IMG/VR virus record: IMGVR_UViG_3300026512_000034
Location: 1 to 39,444 of that record
Reading direction: 5' to 3' (one strand)
Length of the DNA: 39,444 nucleotides
From: a virus
The first letter of the stretch is position 1. Each line of letters opens with the position of its first letter. Below are positions 22,559-34,799 of this stretch, in pieces. The translations under genes were made by a program, and so were the position numbers. Below the pieces are notes generated by a model. It saw only the letters and a program-made list of their open reading frames with translations, had not been told where the DNA came from and ran no database searches.

Positions 22559-23164
22559 CTATACTCCTTCCATAATAGCTACTGCCGAAACTTCGCCCAT
22601 CGCGCCGATTTGCGCCACGGCGTAGCAGGTCATTGTTTCTTCGAATCCATCCACCATCTCGGCATATACGGCACTTTCACACATAATGCCGACATGCGTA
22701 AATATTTCCGTACCGACACGGTAAGACAGAAGCATTTCGGTGATATGACTGCGGGTGTTTTTGCTTGATTCTGCGATAGTTTTAACCCGCTCTGCCATCT
22801 CCGCAGTAATCTCTACATCTTTCATTGTCGATAGATCGATCTTGAACGTGTACGGCTCACCGCCATACTCGAACCACTCAACGATATCTACGTCAACAAT
22901 CGCGTCGAGCGCGCCCTCTACCGCTTTTTTTGTGCCGCGGCACCAAGCTGATTTGACTGTTCCGGCGATAAGTCCTCTTTGAATCTCTTCACTAAATCCA
23001 TCAATGGAAACGCCCGCCTCTAATGCAAGATGAGGCAATACAGACGGGTGACATGTCATCGGGTCGACGCTTACCAATGCAGGGTCAATCACCTGCAAGT
23101 CCTCGCGGTGCATCTGCTCATAGCATTTCCATGCTTCGGTCATGTATGCTGGTAGCAACGTCAT
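22559..23164 (-). CDS. I: Baseplate protein I (P2 gpI-like)
   Basis: 201 residues, normal gpI length. The family motif is near HLALEAGVSIDGFSEEIQRG, then KSAWCRGTKKAVEGALDAIV and DVDIVEWFEYGGEPYTFKID. It connects the baseplate wedge to fibres. It overlaps J by 4 bp and ends at the fibre start. Confidence 0.92.
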   Translation of the reverse strand: MTLLPAYMTEAWKCYEQMHREDLQVIDPALVSVDPMTCHPSVLPHLALEAGVSIDGFSEEIQRGLIAGTVKSAWCRGTKKAVEGALDAIVDVDIVEWFEYGGEPYTFKIDLSTMKDVEITAEMAERVKTIAESSKNTRSHITEMLLSYRVGTEIFTHVGIMCESAVYAEMVDGFEETMTCYAVAQIGAMGEVSAVAIMEGV

Positions 23165-24270
23165 TGCGCTACTCCAAACGTGAGCGATAATGTCGGTCTG
23201 ATTACTTGATGCGGCTCGATGATGACCGACGACAACGGCGATGTGATAACAACATCTTTTACTTGTTCGGTTTCAAGCAACCCGTACAGTTTCGCCATCG
23301 TCAGGCTTCGGCTAAAGATCATTGTGTTTTTCGCTATTGCCTCTTCAATTATTGCGCGTACTTCAAGCGCATAGGTCAGGTCATATAGCACGATGTGGGC
23401 TTCGATCGAAATGTCTACGATGTCAGCTGAATAAATCGATACCTTATCTGTTAACGGTCGAATCTCATCTTTATTGAGTGCCATGTCCACGCGGTCGATC
23501 ATTACTGCATCGGCTTCGCCAGTATTTGAGAGCAGGTAAACTTTCACAACGCCAGGAACATCGCTGATGACCTGCACATCTCCCACCCGTGAATCAGCAG
23601 TTTTCGCGTAATACTCATACATCAGCGCTGATCCTGCGGTAGATTTGCGCTCACGGCTTAACCAGATGCGGTCTCTGAAACGTTCATCATCTTCTGTGTT
23701 TGCCCCACCATGGAAAGCCTCATCTTGGGTCGCCGTAACAACATAAGGAAGCGGCGTTAAAATCACCTCTGTTTTTACGTCGCTTGATTCCACAAACTGC
23801 TGAAGCTCCACCGTCCCAGTCACGGTTGTAATTCCGGCGGGGATGGTTACGTCATCGAGCAGTAATGCTGTCGAACCTTTGCCATCCCCAAGCCGAAGGC
23901 CATCTGGAAGCGTGACATCATAGTTGAGCGGCATTGATAATGTGAACGTAAAAAGAGCGTAAGGCTTTGCTCCTTCTAGACGTGTCACGCCATAGCGTGT
24001 CGCGCCGATATGGTCCAGATCGCCACCTTTTGCATAGGCCAGCAGCTGTGATTTGACGGCCTGATTGATGCGGGTTCTCAACAACATCTCCTCATAGGCG
24101 TCGGTCTCGATCATCGTCATCAAGTCGTCGCTTTCGCTTGGAATGTACTCAATACCCTTTGCTTCCATTAGCTCTATTACACGATCAAGCTTTCTTTGCT
24201 TGATCGCTTCAAAATCAAAAACCTCGATTACTTCGGGGGCCGGGAGATCAGACAGTTGCATTTTCCACAT
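23161..24270 (-). CDS. J: Baseplate assembly protein J (P2 gpJ-like)
   Basis: 369 residues. It begins near LPAPEVIEVFDFEAI and continues with the core LLRTRINQAVKSQLLAYAKG, then DHIGATRYGVTRL. RIWLSRERKSTAGSALMYEY and VGDVQVISDVPGVVKVYLLS are typical of the family. It forms the wedge with W and I. Two starts are possible, ATG 24270 or ATG 24261. Confidence 0.94.
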   Translation of the reverse strand: MWKMQLSDLPAPEVIEVFDFEAIKQRKLDRVIELMEAKGIEYIPSESDDLMTMIETDAYEEMLLRTRINQAVKSQLLAYAKGGDLDHIGATRYGVTRLEGAKPYALFTFTLSMPLNYDVTLPDGLRLGDGKGSTALLLDDVTIPAGITTVTGTVELQQFVESSDVKTEVILTPLPYVVTATQDEAFHGGANTEDDERFRDRIWLSRERKSTAGSALMYEYYAKTADSRVGDVQVISDVPGVVKVYLLSNTGEADAVMIDRVDMALNKDEIRPLTDKVSIYSADIVDISIEAHIVLYDLTYALEVRAIIEEAIAKNTMIFSRSLTMAKLYGLLETEQVKDVVITSPLSSVIIEPHQVIRPTLSLTFGVAQ

Positions 24271-24559
24271 CCGTAAATCCTAAACCGATGGCCCGGTCTA
24301 TTCCATTTTCAGCGTACTCGATACGGATACTTACCGTATCGCCCGTCTGAATACGAACCCGCTTAATTATTGCGCGCGGTTCGTTTTTTTCGATGGCCTC
24401 GTATGTGTGGCGAGTGGCATCAAGCACCCATTCATCGTTCACGGTTTTGTCGATCAGCTCAAACAGACGGCTTCCGTAGTCTGGCATCATTACGCGACTG
24501 CCAAGAGGTGTGACAAGGATTCGGCGGATCGATTCAGCTGTATCTATCTGGTAAATCAT
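24248..24559 (-). CDS. W: Baseplate wedge protein W (P2 gpW / T4 gp25-like)
   Basis: 103 residues. SIRRILVTPLGSRVMMPDYG then RLFELIDKTVNDEWV match the GPW_gp25 family, a sheath-initiating baseplate protein. It overlaps V by 4 bp and J by 23 bp. Confidence 0.94.
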   Translation of the reverse strand: MIYQIDTAESIRRILVTPLGSRVMMPDYGSRLFELIDKTVNDEWVLDATRHTYEAIEKNEPRAIIKRVRIQTGDTVSIRIEYAENGIDRAIGLGFTDVENATV

Positions 24560-25113
24560 GCCCGTTCCGCTCCGTCTGTTGTACTGAAGTTAGTCAGGTC
24601 TCCCCGCGCATCCATGATGCCTCCGCCCACCGACAAGTCGCCCGTGATATCCGTGACAGCTGCGTCGATGGTTACAGTGTCGGCGGCGATTGTTGCGTTG
24701 GTGCATGTGATATAAACAGGGCCGGCGGCGACAACACTCACGCTGCCAGATGCATCGACTTTAATCGTTTTTGCGATAGTATCGATCGCTATGCGCGTGC
24801 CATCTTCCCATTCGATGATCTCAGTTGTGTCGTCTGCACCAGACGGCTCTTTTTGCCCGTGGTTGAAAATCCCGCGAACGACGATCCCGCTGTCCGCTTC
24901 TCCGAACGGACTGACGACAAGTGCCTGTTCGCCTGGTCTAATCGGAATCCAGTGACGGCGAAAGCTACTGGAAAAGCTCATGACCGGCAAAAAGTCGGTT
25001 ACCCGCTCGCCGACCTTGACGCGCGCCAGCGCCTTGCCATTGGCGCTTTTTGTCTCTGCGATCGTCCCGAAGCGCGCAAGGTTCGATATGCGTCGCAGAA
25101 TCTCCGGTATCAT
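24556..25113 (-). CDS. V: Baseplate spike protein V (P2 gpV-like)
   Basis: ATG 25113 is used because GGGGGA precedes it and it overlaps the upstream stop (TAATG). 185 residues. An N-terminal OB-fold (LARVKVGERVTDFLPV; IPIRPGEQALVVSPFGEADS) is followed by a triple-stranded beta-spike region with repeated short strands (residues ~110-165). It punctures the outer membrane. Confidence 0.92.
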   Translation of the reverse strand: MIPEILRRISNLARFGTIAETKSANGKALARVKVGERVTDFLPVMSFSSSFRRHWIPIRPGEQALVVSPFGEADSGIVVRGIFNHGQKEPSGADDTTEIIEWEDGTRIAIDTIAKTIKVDASGSVSVVAAGPVYITCTNATIAADTVTIDAAVTDITGDLSVGGGIMDARGDLTNFSTTDGAERA

Positions 25114-25547
25114 TACATCCCCCACGCTTCCGTGTAATATTTCACCGAAAGATCGATGCGCGCAGCGCCGACGATACTCTCGTTCTGCTCTATCTGCATC
25201 TCTGTACCGGTCACTGATCGGTAATCACCAAGATACTCGCTCTCCTCTTCTGGTTTACCGATAACCCGCAGGACGTCCATCACTTTGCTTCGAAGCGATT
25301 CTGCTGTCATCCTCTCGTCGGCCGCGTAGATTTCGATCTCGATCTTCAGTGAATGATCGCTGCTACCGGAGGGATAGTCATGTGTGATGTCGTCATCGGT
25401 ATCTTTGAGAATGAGTGCAGGTAGATCGTGTTTGCCAAGAGGTGTGACAAGCCACTCGAACAGGTTCGGCTCCCATGTGTAGCCGTTTGCGACCGTGATT
25501 GTTTTTAGTCTGGTTTTGAGGTTGTCGATGATGGCTTGTCGTTTCAT
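25113..25547 (-). CDS. Probable tail terminator/completion protein
   Basis: 144 residues, alpha/beta. The N-terminal helix (MKRQAIIDNLKTRLKTI) and the later strands (HSLKIEIEIYAADERMTAES) resemble tail-terminator proteins of the gpU/STM4215 fold. It lies first in the tail cluster, next to the head module, where such a joining protein is expected. Its ribosome site GGGAG comes from the 52-bp repeat. Confidence 0.65.
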   Translation of the reverse strand: MKRQAIIDNLKTRLKTITVANGYTWEPNLFEWLVTPLGKHDLPALILKDTDDDITHDYPSGSSDHSLKIEIEIYAADERMTAESLRSKVMDVLRVIGKPEEESEYLGDYRSVTGTEMQIEQNESIVGAARIDLSVKYYTEAWGM

Positions 25548-25551
25548 AAGA

Positions 25552-25603
25552 GTATTCTCCCGAAATTGCGAAAAAAAGTAAGGGAGTGAAAAACGGTGCT
25601 AAA
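25552..25603. repeat. 52-bp direct repeat, copy 1 (head/tail junction)
   Basis: Identical to 30553-30604. On the - strand it starts at the TAG stop of the FII-like gene and ends just before the start of the tail terminator, supplying its GGGAG ribosome site. CTCCC (25557-25561) and GGGAG (25582-25586) can pair around a 20-nt loop. It contains an A7 run. Confidence 0.9.
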
Positions 25604-25907
25604 ATCTCGGCCGATCATCTTTCGAGATATAGATTTTGACCATCCCAGAGTGGTCGTCTTCGATTTTGATGACCGTATAGGGGGTGCCATCGATGGATAT
25701 CGCCGGATTCTCCCCGGCCACATCGCTGCGCTTCGCTATCAGATAGTCGACACCATCTATAGCGTTTCCTTCCAGTACCGCTTCGTTGTCACGGGAAAAG
25801 ATGGCCGGGATTTCCGAATTGTCGATCACCACGTTTCGGGCGAACTCTTCCGTATCGAGGAAGACATCTTGGATATCTTCCTCGATATCCTGCGTGAAGC
25901 TATTCAC
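25599..25907 (-). CDS. Head-tail joining protein (lambda gpFII-like)
   Basis: 102 residues. The N-terminal helix (DIEEDIQDVFLDTEEFARNV) and the C-terminal strands (YTVIKIEDDHSGMVKIYIS) match the lambda FII / phage_attach family. It completes heads so tails can bind. It is the last gene of the repeat-bounded head block; its stop lies in repeat copy 1. Confidence 0.75.
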   Translation of the reverse strand: MNSFTQDIEEDIQDVFLDTEEFARNVVIDNSEIPAIFSRDNEAVLEGNAIDGVDYLIAKRSDVAGENPAISIDGTPYTVIKIEDDHSGMVKIYISKDDRPRF

Positions 25908-26169
25908 CCTCTTTATAGCCCTCGATCAGCTCGGTGAGTTCATCTTTTTTCTCGTTGCCAGCAAGTTCGATACCGAGACTTTCCGCATACCCGATGAGTT
26001 CATCTTTTTTCATTTTTGAAAGATCGGTATCGTCTTCATCCTCGTCCGGCTCGGCCGCCGCGAGCTCGACGAGCCGCGCGGCCTCCTTCTCTTCCGCGTC
26101 GAAAAGATCGCCCGGGAGGTGGCGGCCGTCACCGGTGACTACCAGTTTGAGCGCCCTGAGTCTCATCAC
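25900..26169 (-). CDS. Lambda gpFI-like accessory with HeH/LEM-type end
   Basis: 89 residues. The N-terminus is a short beta segment (LRALKLVVTGDGRHLPGDLF), then an acidic linker (DEDEDDTDLS), then a small two-helix domain (KMKKDELIGYAESLGIEL). That domain resembles HeH/LEM modules found in phage packaging accessories. Overlaps both neighbours. The position between capsid and FII-like genes equals lambda FI. Confidence 0.65.
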   Translation of the reverse strand: MMRLRALKLVVTGDGRHLPGDLFDAEEKEAARLVELAAAEPDEDEDDTDLSKMKKDELIGYAESLGIELAGNEKKDELTELIEGYKEGE

Positions 26170-27188
26170 AGAACCTTCGCGCTCATGAATGCGTCAACTT
26201 CGACCGGAACGACCAGCGGAGCAGACTGCATCAGCAGGTAGCGCACGCTCGGGTCTTCTTCTTCCCAGCTTTTGGCGAAGACTTTCGTCGCGTAGAGGGC
26301 CTTGAGGTCTTTGATAGCGCCGTAGACGCGTTTCGCTTTCGCCTGTGTACTGCCGTAGATGACGGTTTCTGCATCAACCATCGCTTTTTCAGCACCGGTC
26401 TCGTCATCGATGTACCACTCGTCATAGCTGTAGATATCAGTGGCGATCTCCGGAATATAGCCCCAGTATGTCACACCTTTGGGCAATACTTCAGGATTGA
26501 TGATTCCGCGCTCCATGCGACGTAGATCGAGCGCATTCTGAACCTTTGCGTTATTGATGAACGCATCGACCGCATCGCCTCCCATTACAGCCACATTCGG
26601 AGCGATTCCCCCAGCCTTGACTCGCTCTGTGCGCCATGCGCGCATTTGTTTGATCGGATCGGAGTCCGTATCACTCCAGAGCGCCGTACCAGAGAGTACC
26701 GGAAGCTGCGAGACATCGAAACTGAAGTCGATCTCATCCTCCACGCCGTCACCCTTAACAATGATTTTTCCAGTGGTAAGCGCCTGAGCCGCCATCCACT
26801 CGATGCGGCGGTAGATATACTCTTTGCCCTCCATAAGATCATCGACGAGCTTGGCCGCCGCACGCTCCATCGCGCTGCCTGCTTCATAAAACACCGTGTT
26901 GGCGTTCTGGACGACATCGGCCGCTTCGGTGACGAATTTGTGCTTGATGTAGGCCGGCTTGTAGGTTCGCACCGTCTTTTGTGCCCCTTCAACCACTTTG
27001 CCCTTCATACGCGGTGCTACGAACGGGGCCATTTTTCGTTTTCCCTTTTTGATCTCGATATCGACGGCTTCCGCTTCGCTGACATCCTCTTTTTTAAAGA
27101 AGAGGTCCTGAAGGAAGGTTCCTGCTGCCGGAATCTGGTTGACCGACGCCGTCAGCTCACGGGTCTGGAAAAGTTCTTCGATTGTCAT
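26166..27188 (-). CDS. Major capsid protein (lambda gpE family)
   Basis: 340 residues, HK97 fold. TIEELFQTRELTASVNQIPA at the start, and VDIEIKKGKRKMAPFVAPRM then YKPAYIKHKFVTEA, are diagnostic of the lambda E family. APNVAVMGGDAVDAFINNAK lies in the second half. It builds the icosahedral head. No P2 N-type capsid is present, which shows the head has a lambda origin. Confidence 0.94.
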   Translation of the reverse strand: MTIEELFQTRELTASVNQIPAAGTFLQDLFFKKEDVSEAEAVDIEIKKGKRKMAPFVAPRMKGKVVEGAQKTVRTYKPAYIKHKFVTEAADVVQNANTVFYEAGSAMERAAAKLVDDLMEGKEYIYRRIEWMAAQALTTGKIIVKGDGVEDEIDFSFDVSQLPVLSGTALWSDTDSDPIKQMRAWRTERVKAGGIAPNVAVMGGDAVDAFINNAKVQNALDLRRMERGIINPEVLPKGVTYWGYIPEIATDIYSYDEWYIDDETGAEKAMVDAETVIYGSTQAKAKRVYGAIKDLKALYATKVFAKSWEEEDPSVRYLLMQSAPLVVPVEVDAFMSAKVL

Positions 27189-27200
27189 ATTCTATACTCC

Positions 27201-27545
27201 TTATGCGATGGTTTTCAGGTAGATTCCGAGCATTCGGAATGCCTCTTTGGTCGATGCAGCGGTGTGTCCGTTTCCAAACGTCAGCGCCGCTTCGTTGATT
27301 TCTCCCGCCTTGATGACGCCGATGGTTGAGTCGCCCGCCGTCGCATCCGCATCGTCGAGCAGAATCGCGTAGACGTTTTCGCTTCCGTCGCTCACCTCCG
27401 TGCCGTCGTCGAGCGTCTTTGCGGAAAGTTTGAGCTTCCCGGTCTCCGTAACCTTGCCCAATGCCGCCCCGCGCGCAAGCGTCTGCCCCGCTTCGAGAAT
27501 CTCCGTGTCGGTCACGATGGGACCGGATACGATAAGTGTGCTCAT
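27201..27545 (-). CDS. Head decoration protein (lambda gpD-like)
   Basis: 114 residues, rich in A/T/G. It carries EILEAGQTLARGAALGKVTE and VYAILLDDADATAGDSTIGV, typical of the trimeric decoration protein that stabilises expanded heads. It precedes the capsid gene, as in lambda. Confidence 0.88.
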   Translation of the reverse strand: MSTLIVSGPIVTDTEILEAGQTLARGAALGKVTETGKLKLSAKTLDDGTEVSDGSENVYAILLDDADATAGDSTIGVIKAGEINEAALTFGNGHTAASTKEAFRMLGIYLKTIA

Positions 27546-27952
27546 GCCTGTGCTCCTTTCAGTTTTTCAATCGCTTTGGCCATGATGGTTTTGGCCTCCG
27601 CCTGCGGTTTTTCACCGTCGGTATCGGATACCGACGTTCCGGCTTCCGCTACCAGCGCGGCCACCTCTTCGCCGTCAGCCGTCCACGACTGCTCCATCTT
27701 CGCCTTTTTCTCTTTTTCAGCCCGCCACATCGCAAGCTCTACCTGCTCTGCGGTGCTTTTGCCGTCAAACTTCATCTCATTTACGATTGCTTCAAATCCA
27801 GGTACTGCCACTGCCTCAATAGCTTTGATACGCTCGCGCTCCGCTGTTGCCCCGACCTCAAAAATACCCGCATAGAGTTCAGGGTGCTGCTCTTTGAGCG
27901 TCGCGGCTGTCATCATACCGCCATGCTCTGCCGTTTTTGTCTGTTGTGACAT
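27542..27952 (-). CDS. Nested scaffold protein from an internal start (Nu3-like)
   Basis: In frame within the protease gene, ATG 27952 is preceded by AAAGGAG at an 8-nt gap, one of the best ribosome sites in the cluster. It would give a 136-residue E/K/A-rich helical protein, matching lambda Nu3 nested in C. The site has no coding reason to exist other than initiation. Confidence 0.7.
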   Translation of the reverse strand: MSQQTKTAEHGGMMTAATLKEQHPELYAGIFEVGATAERERIKAIEAVAVPGFEAIVNEMKFDGKSTAEQVELAMWRAEKEKKAKMEQSWTADGEEVAALVAEAGTSVSDTDGEKPQAEAKTIMAKAIEKLKGAQA

Positions 27953-28816
27953 AGTGTTTACTCCTTTGTTTTTGGTAAGTTCTTCGATAAGAGCTTCAAA
28001 ATTTCCGACACGATCGACCATTCCAGCATCTTTCGCTTCGTCTGAAATAAGAAGATCGCCGCCTCCAAAACGCTCTATCACCGTTTCATAGCTCACCCCG
28101 CGATACTCGGCGACGGCGGCGACGAACTTTCGGCCCAGCTTGTTGGCCCACGCCTCGATCTGTGCCCGCCCCTCTTCACTCGAGATATCCGGCCGCTTCT
28201 TTGGTGAGACGACCGAAACGATCTCCACGCGCTCAAGTCCCTCTTTTTTCAGTTTTTCCGTGTCATCGATCATCGAGAAAACGACACCGATTGAACCAAC
28301 AAGAGCGGTTTCAGATGCCACGATCTCATCGGCTGCCGCCGCGATCCAGTACCCGGCACTTGCAGCAAGATCATCCACATAGGCAACGACACGCTTTTTC
28401 GATCCGCGGATATAGCTCGCGAATTCCGCGATACCGCTCGCCTCTCCGCCGGGTGAGTCGATATTCAGCACGATCGTATCGATGGACGAATCATTTTCAA
28501 GCGTCTTGAAATCTTCGGAATACGCCTGAAGGCTTCGCATAGGGCCGGAGAGGTTCATGCCGTTGCCGTAGCGCATGATGGGTCCGGTAATGTTCAGCAC
28601 GCCAACACTGCCGCGATACTCGACGAACGATGTGTCTCCGGCCTCCTTCACATTGGCCGACAACGCCTCTTTTCTCGCCTCCAGCTGCGCCTTGATGGCG
28701 GCGTTCGTGATGCCGCTTGTGACATCCTCTCTCGCGACGATATTCTGCACCGCGCGCATCCAGTCGGGATGCATCAGCCACGGCTGCGCCGCTATTCTTC
28801 CAATCATATTGATCAT
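27542..28816 (-). CDS. Prohead protease with scaffold domain (lambda gpC-like, S49)
   Basis: 424 residues. The S49/SppA-type peptidase (~70-275) contains the strand LNIDSPGGEASGIAEFASYI and the nucleophile S153 in AASAGYWIAAAADEI. The general base is expected further on, near K198-K210. The C-terminal part (~289-424) is a charged helical scaffold that can also be started internally at 27952. It processes portal and scaffold during head maturation. Confidence 0.93.
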   Translation of the reverse strand: MINMIGRIAAQPWLMHPDWMRAVQNIVAREDVTSGITNAAIKAQLEARKEALSANVKEAGDTSFVEYRGSVGVLNITGPIMRYGNGMNLSGPMRSLQAYSEDFKTLENDSSIDTIVLNIDSPGGEASGIAEFASYIRGSKKRVVAYVDDLAASAGYWIAAAADEIVASETALVGSIGVVFSMIDDTEKLKKEGLERVEIVSVVSPKKRPDISSEEGRAQIEAWANKLGRKFVAAVAEYRGVSYETVIERFGGGDLLISDEAKDAGMVDRVGNFEALIEELTKNKGVNTMSQQTKTAEHGGMMTAATLKEQHPELYAGIFEVGATAERERIKAIEAVAVPGFEAIVNEMKFDGKSTAEQVELAMWRAEKEKKAKMEQSWTADGEEVAALVAEAGTSVSDTDGEKPQAEAKTIMAKAIEKLKGAQA

Positions 28817-30303
28817 TCCATCTCCTTGAGTCCTGATTCTTTCAAAAGTATCGTTTCACGTTTCGCTTTGCGCACGTTTTGCTCGTAGTCGCTTCCGTTG
28901 ATCTCCGCCGCTTCGCGCGCTCTGGTGCTGAACCCTTCCTTTACACGAGCCGCAGCCGCTGAAGTTTCGACCTTTTCGTTGATCTGCCCCGCCGCCGGTC
29001 CGGTCCAGACGCTGCCCAGGTAGGCTTTGCGCACGAACGGATCGTCCAGAAAGCCCGGTGCTTGAAGCCGACCGGAAAGCACAGCTTCGGTGATGACGGC
29101 TTCATAAAACGGCTGGCAGAAGCCGTCACCGATCCACCTGCGCCGCGTTTTGAATATCCGCCATGCCTCGAGAAATGCCGCTCGGGACGCCGTATAGCTG
29201 GATGTGAAATGTTTGAGCAGAATTTCATACGGTATCCCGAGTCCTGCACCGATTTGTCGGAAAATAGTTGTGACAAACGGATCATAGGCAGTATTCGGCC
29301 GTTTCGGATCTGCCGTCTCGATCGACTCATCCTTGGTAAGCGAGACGATGGCGCCGGGTCCAAGTTCGATGTTTTCATCGAAACTTTCTGCCATATCACC
29401 TTCGTCAGACTCGTTTTTCAAAAAGACGGTAAAAAGACCGCTAATGAGCGCGGCCGTCAGCTCCGCTTCGGTATACTCGGAGAGGATTTTGAGGTGATTG
29501 ATGACTGGCGCAAGGTACGGAACACCGCGCCGCTGTCCCGGCCTTGTCTGCCGATAGAGGTGAATGACGTTACGTCGGCCGCTTTTGCCGTAGGCCGGGA
29601 TCACGACCCATTCACGGTTCATGTCGTAGCCACCCGGATGCAATTTGAGCACATGGTACTCGATCGGTGCGCCGTATCTATCGACGCGGATGCCGCCCGC
29701 AAGTTCGTCCGTGTCCATCGCGTCGTCCTTGTTGCAGACGCGGTCCGCCTCGATAAGAGATAGTGTCGTGGTATAGGGCCAGTGTTTTCGCCTGATGGCC
29801 GGCATCGTCGCGAAAAGGTCCCCGGAAAGTAGGGCTGAGATCAAAGCCGTAGTCTGAAGTTCATAGAAGTTTTTCGAGCGTGCGGCATCACAGTTGACGC
29901 TTTCAGCCACGAAACGAAACTCGCGCTCGGCCGCCGCTTCCCACTCCGCCGCCGCATCGTCGGAAAGGCCAAGATAGTCGCGATCGATCTGCGCCTGCAC
30001 TCTCAGACCGCTGCCGACGATGCTCGCCGCGTTCGTATCGATCACACCGGCAACAAGAGGGTCGTTGCGGTAGAGGTCCCGGCTTCTCGTGCGAAGCGTT
30101 TTGAGATTCGGCAGGTCGTCCTTGTCTGCACTTCCCCCGCTGGCGTGCCAGTTTTTCAAAGAGCGGTGCGATCCGGATGCCCCGACATAGCTGCCAAGCG
30201 CACCCATACTTGCCCTGGCACGCATCCTCTGAAGACCCTTGACCGGCGCGAAATAGGATACGACCTTGTCAACGATCGTAGGTTTGAAATTGACGTTATT
30301 CAA
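28813..30303 (-). CDS. Portal protein (lambda gpB family)
   Basis: 496 residues. LRTRSRDLYRNDPLVAGVID and the following VGSGLRVQAQID are characteristic of lambda-family portals. EADRVCNKDDAMDTDELAGG and IHLYRQTRPGQRRGVPYLAP mark the wing and stem. FTSSYTASRAAFLEAWRIFK is near the crown. It forms the dodecamer through which DNA enters. Overlaps the protease by 4 bp. Confidence 0.95.
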   Translation of the reverse strand: MNNVNFKPTIVDKVVSYFAPVKGLQRMRARASMGALGSYVGASGSHRSLKNWHASGGSADKDDLPNLKTLRTRSRDLYRNDPLVAGVIDTNAASIVGSGLRVQAQIDRDYLGLSDDAAAEWEAAAEREFRFVAESVNCDAARSKNFYELQTTALISALLSGDLFATMPAIRRKHWPYTTTLSLIEADRVCNKDDAMDTDELAGGIRVDRYGAPIEYHVLKLHPGGYDMNREWVVIPAYGKSGRRNVIHLYRQTRPGQRRGVPYLAPVINHLKILSEYTEAELTAALISGLFTVFLKNESDEGDMAESFDENIELGPGAIVSLTKDESIETADPKRPNTAYDPFVTTIFRQIGAGLGIPYEILLKHFTSSYTASRAAFLEAWRIFKTRRRWIGDGFCQPFYEAVITEAVLSGRLQAPGFLDDPFVRKAYLGSVWTGPAAGQINEKVETSAAAARVKEGFSTRAREAAEINGSDYEQNVRKAKRETILLKESGLKEME

Positions 30304-30535
30304 ATCGGCTCACCCCGTAACGGATTCTCAGACCCCCGCGCCCGTCGGCTTTCGCCTGAAGACGGTCGACTTCCCGTTTCCAATATTTGATATCTTCGTT
30401 GACCTGTTCGAGTTCGGCACGGCGTGATCTGCTCTTGTCGCCGCCCACGGTATACTCCTGTGAACGCAGAATGCGGCTTCTGGCATCTAGTGCCTCTTTG
30501 AGATAGGTCTTCGCTTCGTCGAGTGTCCAGGTCAA
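30296..30535 (-). CDS. Head-tail connector (lambda gpW position)
   Basis: The start is TTG 30535, with GGAG 7 nt upstream; there is no suitable ATG. The 79-residue product is helical (WTLDEAKTYLKEALDARSRI; LEQVNEDIKYWKREVDRLQA), like the gpW/DUF6148 group that sits between terminase and portal genes and stabilises packaged DNA. First gene inside the repeat-bounded head block. Confidence 0.8.
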   Translation of the reverse strand: MTWTLDEAKTYLKEALDARSRILRSQEYTVGGDKSRSRRAELEQVNEDIKYWKREVDRLQAKADGRGGLRIRYGVSRFE

Positions 30536-30552
30536 AGAATACTCCTTTTAGC

Positions 30553-30604
30553 GTATTCTCCCGAAATTGCGAAAAAAAGTAAGGGAGTGAAAAACGGTGC
30601 TAAA
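30553..30604. repeat. 52-bp direct repeat, copy 2 (terminase/head junction)
   Basis: Identical to 25552-25603, 5,001 bp away. As with copy 1 it begins (on the - strand) at the TAG stop of the upstream gene and includes the CTCCC/GGGAG pair. Here a separate GGAG site follows for the next gene. Confidence 0.9.
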
Positions 30605-30782
30605 TCTTTCCTTTGAACGAAAGCAGCTCTTCGAGTTTCTTTCTGAACGTGTCACTCTCATGAAGCAATGCCTCGAGAGTCTCCCCGATCCGCTTTCCCC
30701 TCTCATTCGCCAAAATCTCCAAAACGACCACAGTATCGATCTTCACACTCCCCCGAAGCTGTACTGTCGGCTGTTTTCTCAT
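30600..30782 (-). CDS. Small ribbon-helix-helix-like protein
   Basis: 60 residues. VQLRGSVKIDTVVVLEILAN followed by GKRIGETLEALLHES has the strand-helix-helix spacing of Arc/MetJ-type DNA-binding proteins. Located between terminase large subunit and head genes. A late regulator or terminase accessory are both possible. Overlaps terminase by 4 bp. Confidence 0.55.
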   Translation of the reverse strand: MRKQPTVQLRGSVKIDTVVVLEILANERGKRIGETLEALLHESDTFRKKLEELLSFKGKI

Positions 30783-33149: not shown

Positions 33150-33304
33150 CGTTTTTAAACCTTTTGGTTTAATTTTTCTCTAAACATTATTGGTTGTTCC
33201 CAAAAATTCTGGGTTTAACCGTGGTTTAAAAGTTGAAAAATAGAGAGTTTCCGCGATCGCGAGTATCCGCACGAATTTCCACCCCCAGAAGGACCCGCAC
33301 ATCC
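33150..33304. promoter_or_regulatory. cos: Candidate cos region upstream of terminase
   Basis: Four copies of GGTTTAA: an inverted pair TTAAACC/GGTTTAA around TTTT (33155-33172) and two direct copies (33212-33218, 33223-33229). A 10-bp perfect palindrome CGCGATCGCG (33252-33261) lies beyond them in a GC-richer patch. In lambda the order is cosN, then terminase-binding repeats, then nu1; the order here is the same. Alternatively the repeats are operators for late genes. Confidence 0.4.
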
Positions 33305-33841
33305 TCATCCTCTCCCTAAATAAAAATCGAAGTTGTGTTTAAACTCTTTTTCGTAATTTGCCTCTACTTCTCTTTTAGCTTTATCCAGAATCTCTTTATT
33401 GAACATCTGCGGGATTGACAGAGTTTTCTTTGATTCAATAGGCAATCTATCTTTGCCAATCCGCTGAAATACATGCACATTCCCATTTTTTCCGGTAGCA
33501 ATAAACGCTCCTCTTATGACCCTTCTGCCTCTATCTTTTCTAACCTTGACGCTCACGCCTTTTTTTGTTTTACGTGCCCCGAAGTTGATGAGGCTCGATT
33601 GATTGCCACTTATCTTGAACCTCCATGCGACATCGTTGCCATCCGTCATAGTTCGTGTCTTGATCTTATCTTTCAGCTTATTGGCCTTGATGCTGTACGT
33701 CTTCCGCACCTCTTTTGTCGCGGTGGTTTTTAATCTTTGACCCATGCGTCGTACTGTTTTGCTAAGTGCTTTCTTATACTCTTTAGGATTGAGGGCGGCC
33801 AACGCCTCATCAATACCATCAATCTTTACATCAATTCTCAT
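33305..33841 (-). CDS. Minor tail protein Z-like (lambda gpZ family)
   Basis: 178 residues, basic. KKALSKTVRRMGQRLKTTAT and the patch WRFKISGNQSSLINFGARKT match the gpZ family, which acts at the head-proximal tail end. Its location before terminase, far from the tail cluster, is unusual for lambda but seen in chimeric phages. Overlaps the upstream gene by 4 bp. Confidence 0.8.
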   Translation of the reverse strand: MRIDVKIDGIDEALAALNPKEYKKALSKTVRRMGQRLKTTATKEVRKTYSIKANKLKDKIKTRTMTDGNDVAWRFKISGNQSSLINFGARKTKKGVSVKVRKDRGRRVIRGAFIATGKNGNVHVFQRIGKDRLPIESKKTLSIPQMFNKEILDKAKREVEANYEKEFKHNFDFYLGRG

Positions 33842-34592: not shown

Positions 34593-34799
34593 TTACTGGA
34601 ATAGCGGTGGTGTCTTGTCGTCTTCGTATCTTTTGCAGTGATACTCTCGTTTGTACTCTCGGAACTCTTTATCACTCGCGAGTTTCAGCTCGATCACCTT
34701 GCCGAGGCTCATGCCCCTTGCTTCCGCCATCCTCTCGATGGCGTAAAGCGTGCTTGCCTTGACAGTCGGATGGATAGTGACGGTGCTGTCGATTTTCAT
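34593..34799 (-). CDS. Ribbon-helix-helix-like regulator
   Basis: 68 residues. A strand STVTIHPTVKAS is followed by two helices (LYAIERMAEARGMSLGKVIE), then a charged tail. Fold resembles Arc/CopG. It stands alone with ~60-bp gaps on both sides at the replication-to-packaging boundary, so it may regulate late genes; this is inferred from place. Confidence 0.55.
   Translation of the reverse strand: MKIDSTVTIHPTVKASTLYAIERMAEARGMSLGKVIELKLASDKEFREYKREYHCKRYEDDKTPPLFQ

Follow-up and report, generated by a model that had tools for sequence, protein, structure and literature searches.

Paired promoter-like repeats before the head and tail genes of a lambda-head/P2-tail prophage, and a putative regulator gene beside one of them

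In phage P2 one small activator, Ogr/Delta, acts at separate late promoters for groups of structural genes, and Ogr is a zinc-finger protein. In phage Mu, the C protein activates several late promoters with non-consensus -10 and -35 elements from a site located just upstream of the -35 (PMC4461284). We analysed a stretch of viral DNA of 39,444 nucleotides (nt) (IMG/VR record IMGVR_UViG_3300026512_000034, positions 1 to 39,444; hereafter the window), in which two copies of a 52-bp repeat flank the head genes of a prophage. The upstream copy (30553–30604) lies between a 60-codon gene, orf60, and gpW, the downstream copy (25552–25603) between an FII-like gene and the tail-terminator gene; both copies, like all late genes, are on the minus strand. 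We conclude that they are probably paired late promoters under one neighbouring regulator, most likely that encoded by orf60. In each copy, a regulator box (CACC, 6 nt, CACTCCC) would precede a weak -35 (CTTACT), from which a T-rich spacer of 17 bp would lead to a -10. The upstream copy would start the head operon from gpW and the downstream copy the tail operon from the tail terminator. Both would be controlled by the same phage protein, whose gene closes the terminase operon beside the upstream copy and which most likely acts as an activator.

The repeat search of the window gave a 55-nt pair with one mismatch (25549–25603 and 30550–30604), bearing out the 52 identical bases noted in the first-pass annotation. 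The only other repeats of comparable kind in the window were the att/tRNA-Met repeats. A chance origin of the pair was excluded (0 of 100 shuffles). In its own genome, an assembly of 1.94 Mb, the 52-mer occurred twice, the next matches being 21–29 nt long with E-values of at least 0.36. It was absent from the 17 other genomes of the host genus that were searched, and an exact 32-mer scan of viral contigs gave no match. A dispersed host repeat or miniature inverted-repeat transposable element was rejected on these two counts, only two copies in 1.94 Mb and none in the 17 genomes.

To describe the element we used relatives collected by a portal search of viral contigs (26 loci), a scan of genome contigs (58) and pattern searches, which supplied further ones. 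Twenty copies were found through, and aligned on, the core CTCCCTTAC. Positions 2–10 of the box ACTCCCTTAC were identical in all of them. This box, which includes the weak -35 CTTACT, is located by window scan and profile at 30579–30588 in the upstream copy and at 25578–25587 in the downstream copy. It is followed by TTT at +12 to +14, a variable T-rich spacer and a hexamer in which A occupies position 2 in 19 of 20 copies and position 4 in 18, and T occupies position 6 in 19. The hexamer is mostly TATACT, other forms being TACACT, TACAAT, TATCCT, GAAAAT and GAGAAT. The mean match to TATAAT reached 4.3 of 6 at this offset and at most 3.0 at every other, a value that none of 2000 base shuffles attained. 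Taking CTTACT as a weak -35, the spacer measured 17 bp in 19 of the 20 copies and 18 bp in the downstream copy of L060. The constrained parts of the element are thus the box and the -10 rather than its full length, and the fixed distance between them points to a promoter architecture. In the window, the predicted -10 is GAGAAT in both copies (30555–30560 and 25554–25559), where relatives have TATACT, TACACT or GAAAAT at equal distance. The alignment profile also suggests a half-site CACC (30595–30598 and 25594–25597), one helical turn (10 bp) before the CACT of the box, where the regulator could sit. As with the activator-dependent late promoters of Mu C or P2 Ogr type, a shared box stands at two or more late promoters, with a -10 at fixed distance and a non-consensus -35. 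From these sequence features, the two 52-bp copies are very likely paired late promoters.

The first-pass annotation had proposed that each copy runs from the preceding stop codon to the next translation start. Both copies do begin in the TAG of orf60 or of the FII-like gene. At the other end the description holds for the downstream copy, 4 nt from a start codon, and not for the upstream copy, which ends 17 nt ahead of the TTG of gpW. At 25547–25559, only 6 nt separate the downstream -10 from the ATG of the tail-terminator gene, likewise in L006. A leaderless mRNA is therefore predicted for this gene from the downstream promoter, while transcripts that read through would have a ribosome site, GGGAG, that overlaps the -10.

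We then compared both borders among relatives, a check that the first-pass annotation had suggested and that was positive for position: in every relative read, the element stood directly before gpW or the tail-terminator gene. The closest relative, L006 (portal 92% identical), has a 30-bp exact repeat common to both borders, partly unlike the sequence in the window. One copy per border was also present in L008, L009, L060 (Nitratiruptor) and G045; at least six related phages carry a matched pair. Across 397 genomes of the phylum, the box-plus--10 pattern had only three sites and the reversed pattern none; two of the three form a pair 5.4 kb apart, exactly at these borders. An opposite-strand gene separates orf60 from the box in L009, L011, L035 and L060, and extra DNA separates FII from the box in L008. 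Such insertions between the preceding gene and the box argue that the element belongs to the gene that follows. The inserted genes differ from one another (L009, 5283–5639; L011, 5029–5658; L035; L060, 4366–4881), and in these four phages the slot that separates orf60 from the promoter acts as an insertion site for accessory (moron) genes.

The half-sites of the upstream and downstream copies of a phage matched each other best, with a difference sum of 5 that was the best of 720 partner permutations. In L006 identity between the copies is limited to the box half, whereas in the window it extends over the spacer. Identity of box and -10 together with variable identity of the spacer suggests a constraint by a shared regulator plus occasional overwriting of one copy. 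The copies would match because both must fit the same protein. In the window phage, one copy may recently have overwritten the other, by gene conversion or copy transfer, which would make even the unconstrained spacer identical.

Boxes of three types, A, B and C, were distinguished. Type A is represented by a modest number of related phages, type B by two contigs, of which one covers both borders, and type C by three contigs. A natural swap was provided by L009 and L012, which are close in TerL (95% protein identity), gpW (96%), portal (94%) and major capsid protein (95%) and share only 46% identity in orf60. Before gpW of L012, another box, 32 bp long and beginning at the stop codon of the new orf60, has taken the place of the type-A box, and the -10 is kept. 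Before its tail terminator, the identical 32-bp box has been added with its own -10 after the old promoter. At both borders a hexamer (TACACT, TAAACT) follows the 32-bp box by 15 nt. Regulator and boxes at both borders were thus replaced jointly in a near-identical phage. A scan for box B returned only the two contigs already known. The predicted DNA-facing residues of the orf60 beta-strand are T-Q-R with type A, K-R-R with type B and A-T-H with type C, so that contact residues appear to follow box type, B being represented by one phage and C by two. In the window orf60 they are T6, Q8 and R10.

The gene orf60 (30600–30782, minus strand), missing from the gene list of the first-pass annotation, has a 3′ end that falls within the upstream copy. 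All type-A phages with a readable slot have it between TerL and gpW, and it was not found in box-less relatives such as L014, L015, L016 and L018. G230 is an exception, with a similar small gene and no box. The structure predicted for orf60 (predicted local distance difference test, pLDDT, 87) had mainly ribbon-helix-helix proteins as Foldseek neighbours (Arc, MatP, CopG, antitoxins). For a second member of the family, 36 of 37 structural matches were ribbon-helix-helix proteins, all weak (E of at least 2.5). We therefore regard orf60 as a probable ribbon-helix-helix DNA-binding protein. Among sequence profiles, the best ribbon-helix-helix Pfam match was 56B_RHH with E 0.18, in one of ten members, and the Mor/C family (PF08765) gave no match to orf60. 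A search of 50,697 phage records with orf60 also gave none. Another candidate regulator, the gpZ-like gene at 33305–33841, is conserved in the phages and was rejected, Pfam assigning it to minor tail protein Z. The early region of the window holds a second orf60-like, putative ribbon-helix-helix gene (34593–34799), 27–29% identical to orf60 and with a 91% identical copy in G006 C136; no target was found for it, and the box-C site is absent from the window.

Co-occurrence, joint replacement, fold and analogy make it fairly likely that orf60 is the regulator of the two promoters. On the same grounds, that it acts as an activator is somewhat favoured, at a slightly lower level. Activation is preferred over repression because of the weak -35 and, mainly, because Mor/C-like proteins occupy the same slot in other phages.

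A like arrangement was found with boxes of other sequence. In G006, a genome of the host's genus, two prophages carry boxes of the form TAGTnnACTA beside distant relatives of orf60. In one (C136) the pair is identical over 43 bp and its second member follows the portal gene; in the other (C6) one box precedes gpW and another the tail terminator. G012, a close relative of G006 C136, has a 20-bp pair plus a -10, which repeats the contrast between the window and L006; separately, several adjoining long exact direct repeats of 64–111 bp lie at the start of one of its contigs (L185, G012 C102, 1–2200). The short box-C pattern had 63 matches in viral contigs and occurred at background level over the 397 genomes, except for the G006 C6 pair, and is hence not evidence by itself. 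In an unbiased check of 77 lambda-head loci, 13 had an exact repeat of at least 16 bp linking the TerL/gpW border to later DNA. Seven of these 13 are Burkholderiales prophages, in which the box, CAAATTGCCC or a variant of it, precedes gpW and recurs some 2–3 kb further on. In all 14 copies, TANA(C/G)T stands exactly 23 nt after TTGCCC, and box variants are matched inside each phage. The slot gene is Mor/C-like in several of these prophages (PHROG 532/836, 'late transcriptional activator') and helix-turn-helix-like in others.

Several observations weigh against paired, activated promoters read by orf60. GAGAAT, as found in the window, is a poor -10, and the copies are not called by a standard sigma-70 scan, owing to the poor -35. 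Type-A copies come from related phages and are incompletely independent, and the supporting phage lineages are few. L012 retains the old type-A box downstream. Foldseek E-values for orf60 are weak (0.3 or more), no Pfam or PHROG family covers it, and the Pfam Mor matches in Burkholderiales (E 1e-4 to 4e-3) fall under Pfam's curated cut-off. Sulfurimonas phage SNW-1 has an orf60-like domain and no gap before its tail genes, hence no second promoter there. Finally, characterised ribbon-helix-helix regulators are mostly repressors.

This last point leads to the reading in which the boxes are operators and orf60 shuts off the head and tail promoters for timing or dosage control. Arc, CopG and most other characterised ribbon-helix-helix regulators of phages and plasmids do repress, and the box touches the -35. 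However, -35 hexamers are poor in every copy, so that the promoters look activator-dependent; Mor/C-like activators fill the same slot in Burkholderiales phages; and it is hard to see what use the phage would have for a repressor produced together with terminase, right before the head genes come into play. We consider repression unlikely. A little less probable still is that the promoters are read by another factor, such as an unrecognised phage regulator or a sigma-like protein, with orf60 a hitch-hiking passenger. Since orf60 adjoins the upstream box, their joint replacement could be a single cassette swap, and the second orf60-like gene of the window offers another protein of this kind. Yet the distant downstream border of L012 gained the same new box, and several unrelated boxes each lie beside their own orf60-like or Mor/C-like gene.

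The first-pass annotation had suggested a recombination boundary, with the repeats as landing sites for RecE/RecT in the exchange of head cassettes. A RecT and an exonuclease VIII-like gene are indeed present, and in one comparison, the window against G006 C6, mosaicism breaks at the tail-terminator border. There, homology to the window tail (80% DNA identity) starts 9 nt inside the tail-terminator gene, and the head is unrelated (portal 25%, FII 34%) with its own box upstream. Over 23100–25550 of the window, tail terminator to gpJ, C6 (locus L180) is 78–89% identical, a clear head/tail mosaic. But homology broke at this downstream border only, not at both copies, and two different boxes meet at the C6 junction. 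The promoter goes along with the side carrying the regulator rather than with the tail. Moreover, the window aligns with L006 without interruption for 8.9 kb, at 79.5% DNA identity and across both copies, so that no swapped cassette has its edges at the repeats in this pair of phages. Constraint falls on the box and -10 alone, and L009 and L012 exchanged orf60 and boxes with their heads unexchanged. A capsid-exchange role is thus unsupported and very improbable. The border exchange in C6 shows that the promoters sit at module joints, yet gene expression explains the element. The least probable reading, which we hardly credit, is an RNA element in which CTCCC/GGGAG pairing hides a ribosome-binding site, or a cleavage site sets head-gene dosage. 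A 5-bp stem can form in the window 52-mer, but its energy lies within the shuffle range (z -1.1) and Rfam gave no match. The proposed pairing itself fails outside the window, as GGGAG is lacking in all other copies and the stem is gone in L006. The element can also sit far from the start codon, as in the downstream copy of L012.

The reading retained is that of paired late promoters, probably served by orf60. The window is a whole contig of the 1.94-Mb assembly. Its prophage has an integrase and a complete tRNA-Met, and att-like repeats of 63 bp mark both ends. In reading order, the minus strand holds gpZ-like, TerS, TerL, orf60 and the upstream copy (30604–30553). This copy is followed by the gpW-like head-tail adaptor (30296–30535, PHROG 118), the lambda gpB-type portal protein (28813–30303, PHROG 21) and the C/Nu3-type head maturation protease/scaffold (27542–28816, PHROG 53). 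Next come the gpD-type head decoration protein (27201–27545, PHROG 49), the gpE-type major capsid protein (26166–27188, PHROG 29) and a small gene in the FI position (25900–26169) with weak mixed matches only. The FII-like head closure protein (25599–25907, PHROG 2551 and 82) ends the head genes and precedes the downstream copy (25603–25552). The tail-terminator-like gene (25113–25547, PHROG 4204), baseplate genes and the remaining P2-type tail follow. Lambda-type head genes between the copies, with P2-type tail downstream and terminase on the other side, agree with the earlier description. From TerS to the baseplate most neighbours overlap or abut, and the only two clear gaps of this leftward operon are those occupied by the elements. 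Upstream of TerS (33155–33229, minus strand) we observed four GGTTTAA/TTAAACC heptads in two closely spaced pairs, a related arrangement being kept in L006; they could be TerS-binding sites of a cos region or operators of a terminase promoter.

More broadly, and with slightly less than even confidence, we propose that a ribbon-helix-helix family encoded between terminase and head genes comprises late activators. Each would have its own adjacent box, and upon replacement the new box would be copied to the tail promoter, so that the set changes together. If true, this would describe the late switch of the little-studied lambda-head/P2-tail phages of vent-dwelling Campylobacterota. It would also assign a role to an unannotated gene of 60 residues, and the phage late regulators would gain a further protein fold. 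Natural swaps of regulator and box between otherwise near-identical phages would offer a clean system for regulator-site co-change. Annotators who meet exact repeats where the modules of a phage late operon join may be looking at co-regulated promoters, one of which has the regulator gene beside it.

The closest described phage by portal (52%) is Sulfurimonas phage SNW-1 (OP810509.1), which has the same gene order. Its slot protein, WAK43908.1, combines a helix-turn-helix with an orf60-like domain (hhalign probability 95.8, E 7e-9). The N-terminal stretch of this protein (L168, 8317–8643) matches a PHROG terminase small subunit (E 3e-7), the orf60-like domain being C-terminal. Promoters are unmentioned in the paper on SNW-1.

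The predicted fold, small size and operator half-sites one helical turn apart liken orf60 to P22 Arc, CopG and the omega repressor. TATCAC, present in many boxes, also recalls the omega heptad, WATCACW. However, these ribbon-helix-helix proteins are repressors and orf60 matches no sequence family, its proposed role being late-gene activation. A search of the open-access literature found no ribbon-helix-helix late activator, which is not proof of their absence. Of the window genes scanned, none was of the Ogr type. In lambdoid phages, short conserved boundary sequences also lie at module joints; here, in contrast, conservation falls on a regulator box and on a -10 at constant distance from it, and the alignment with the closest relative runs through without a break. 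The likeness to the Mu late promoters (Plys, PI, PP and Pmom, activated by C of the Mor/C family) lies in one phage activator serving several late promoters, and in the Mor/C-like gene that fills the orf60 slot in Burkholderiales lambda-head prophages. Unlike C and Mor, orf60 is unrelated in sequence and predicted to be ribbon-helix-helix. Unlike in Mu, the promoters here form near-identical pairs, and the gene of the putative regulator is the last of the terminase operon, beside the first of them.

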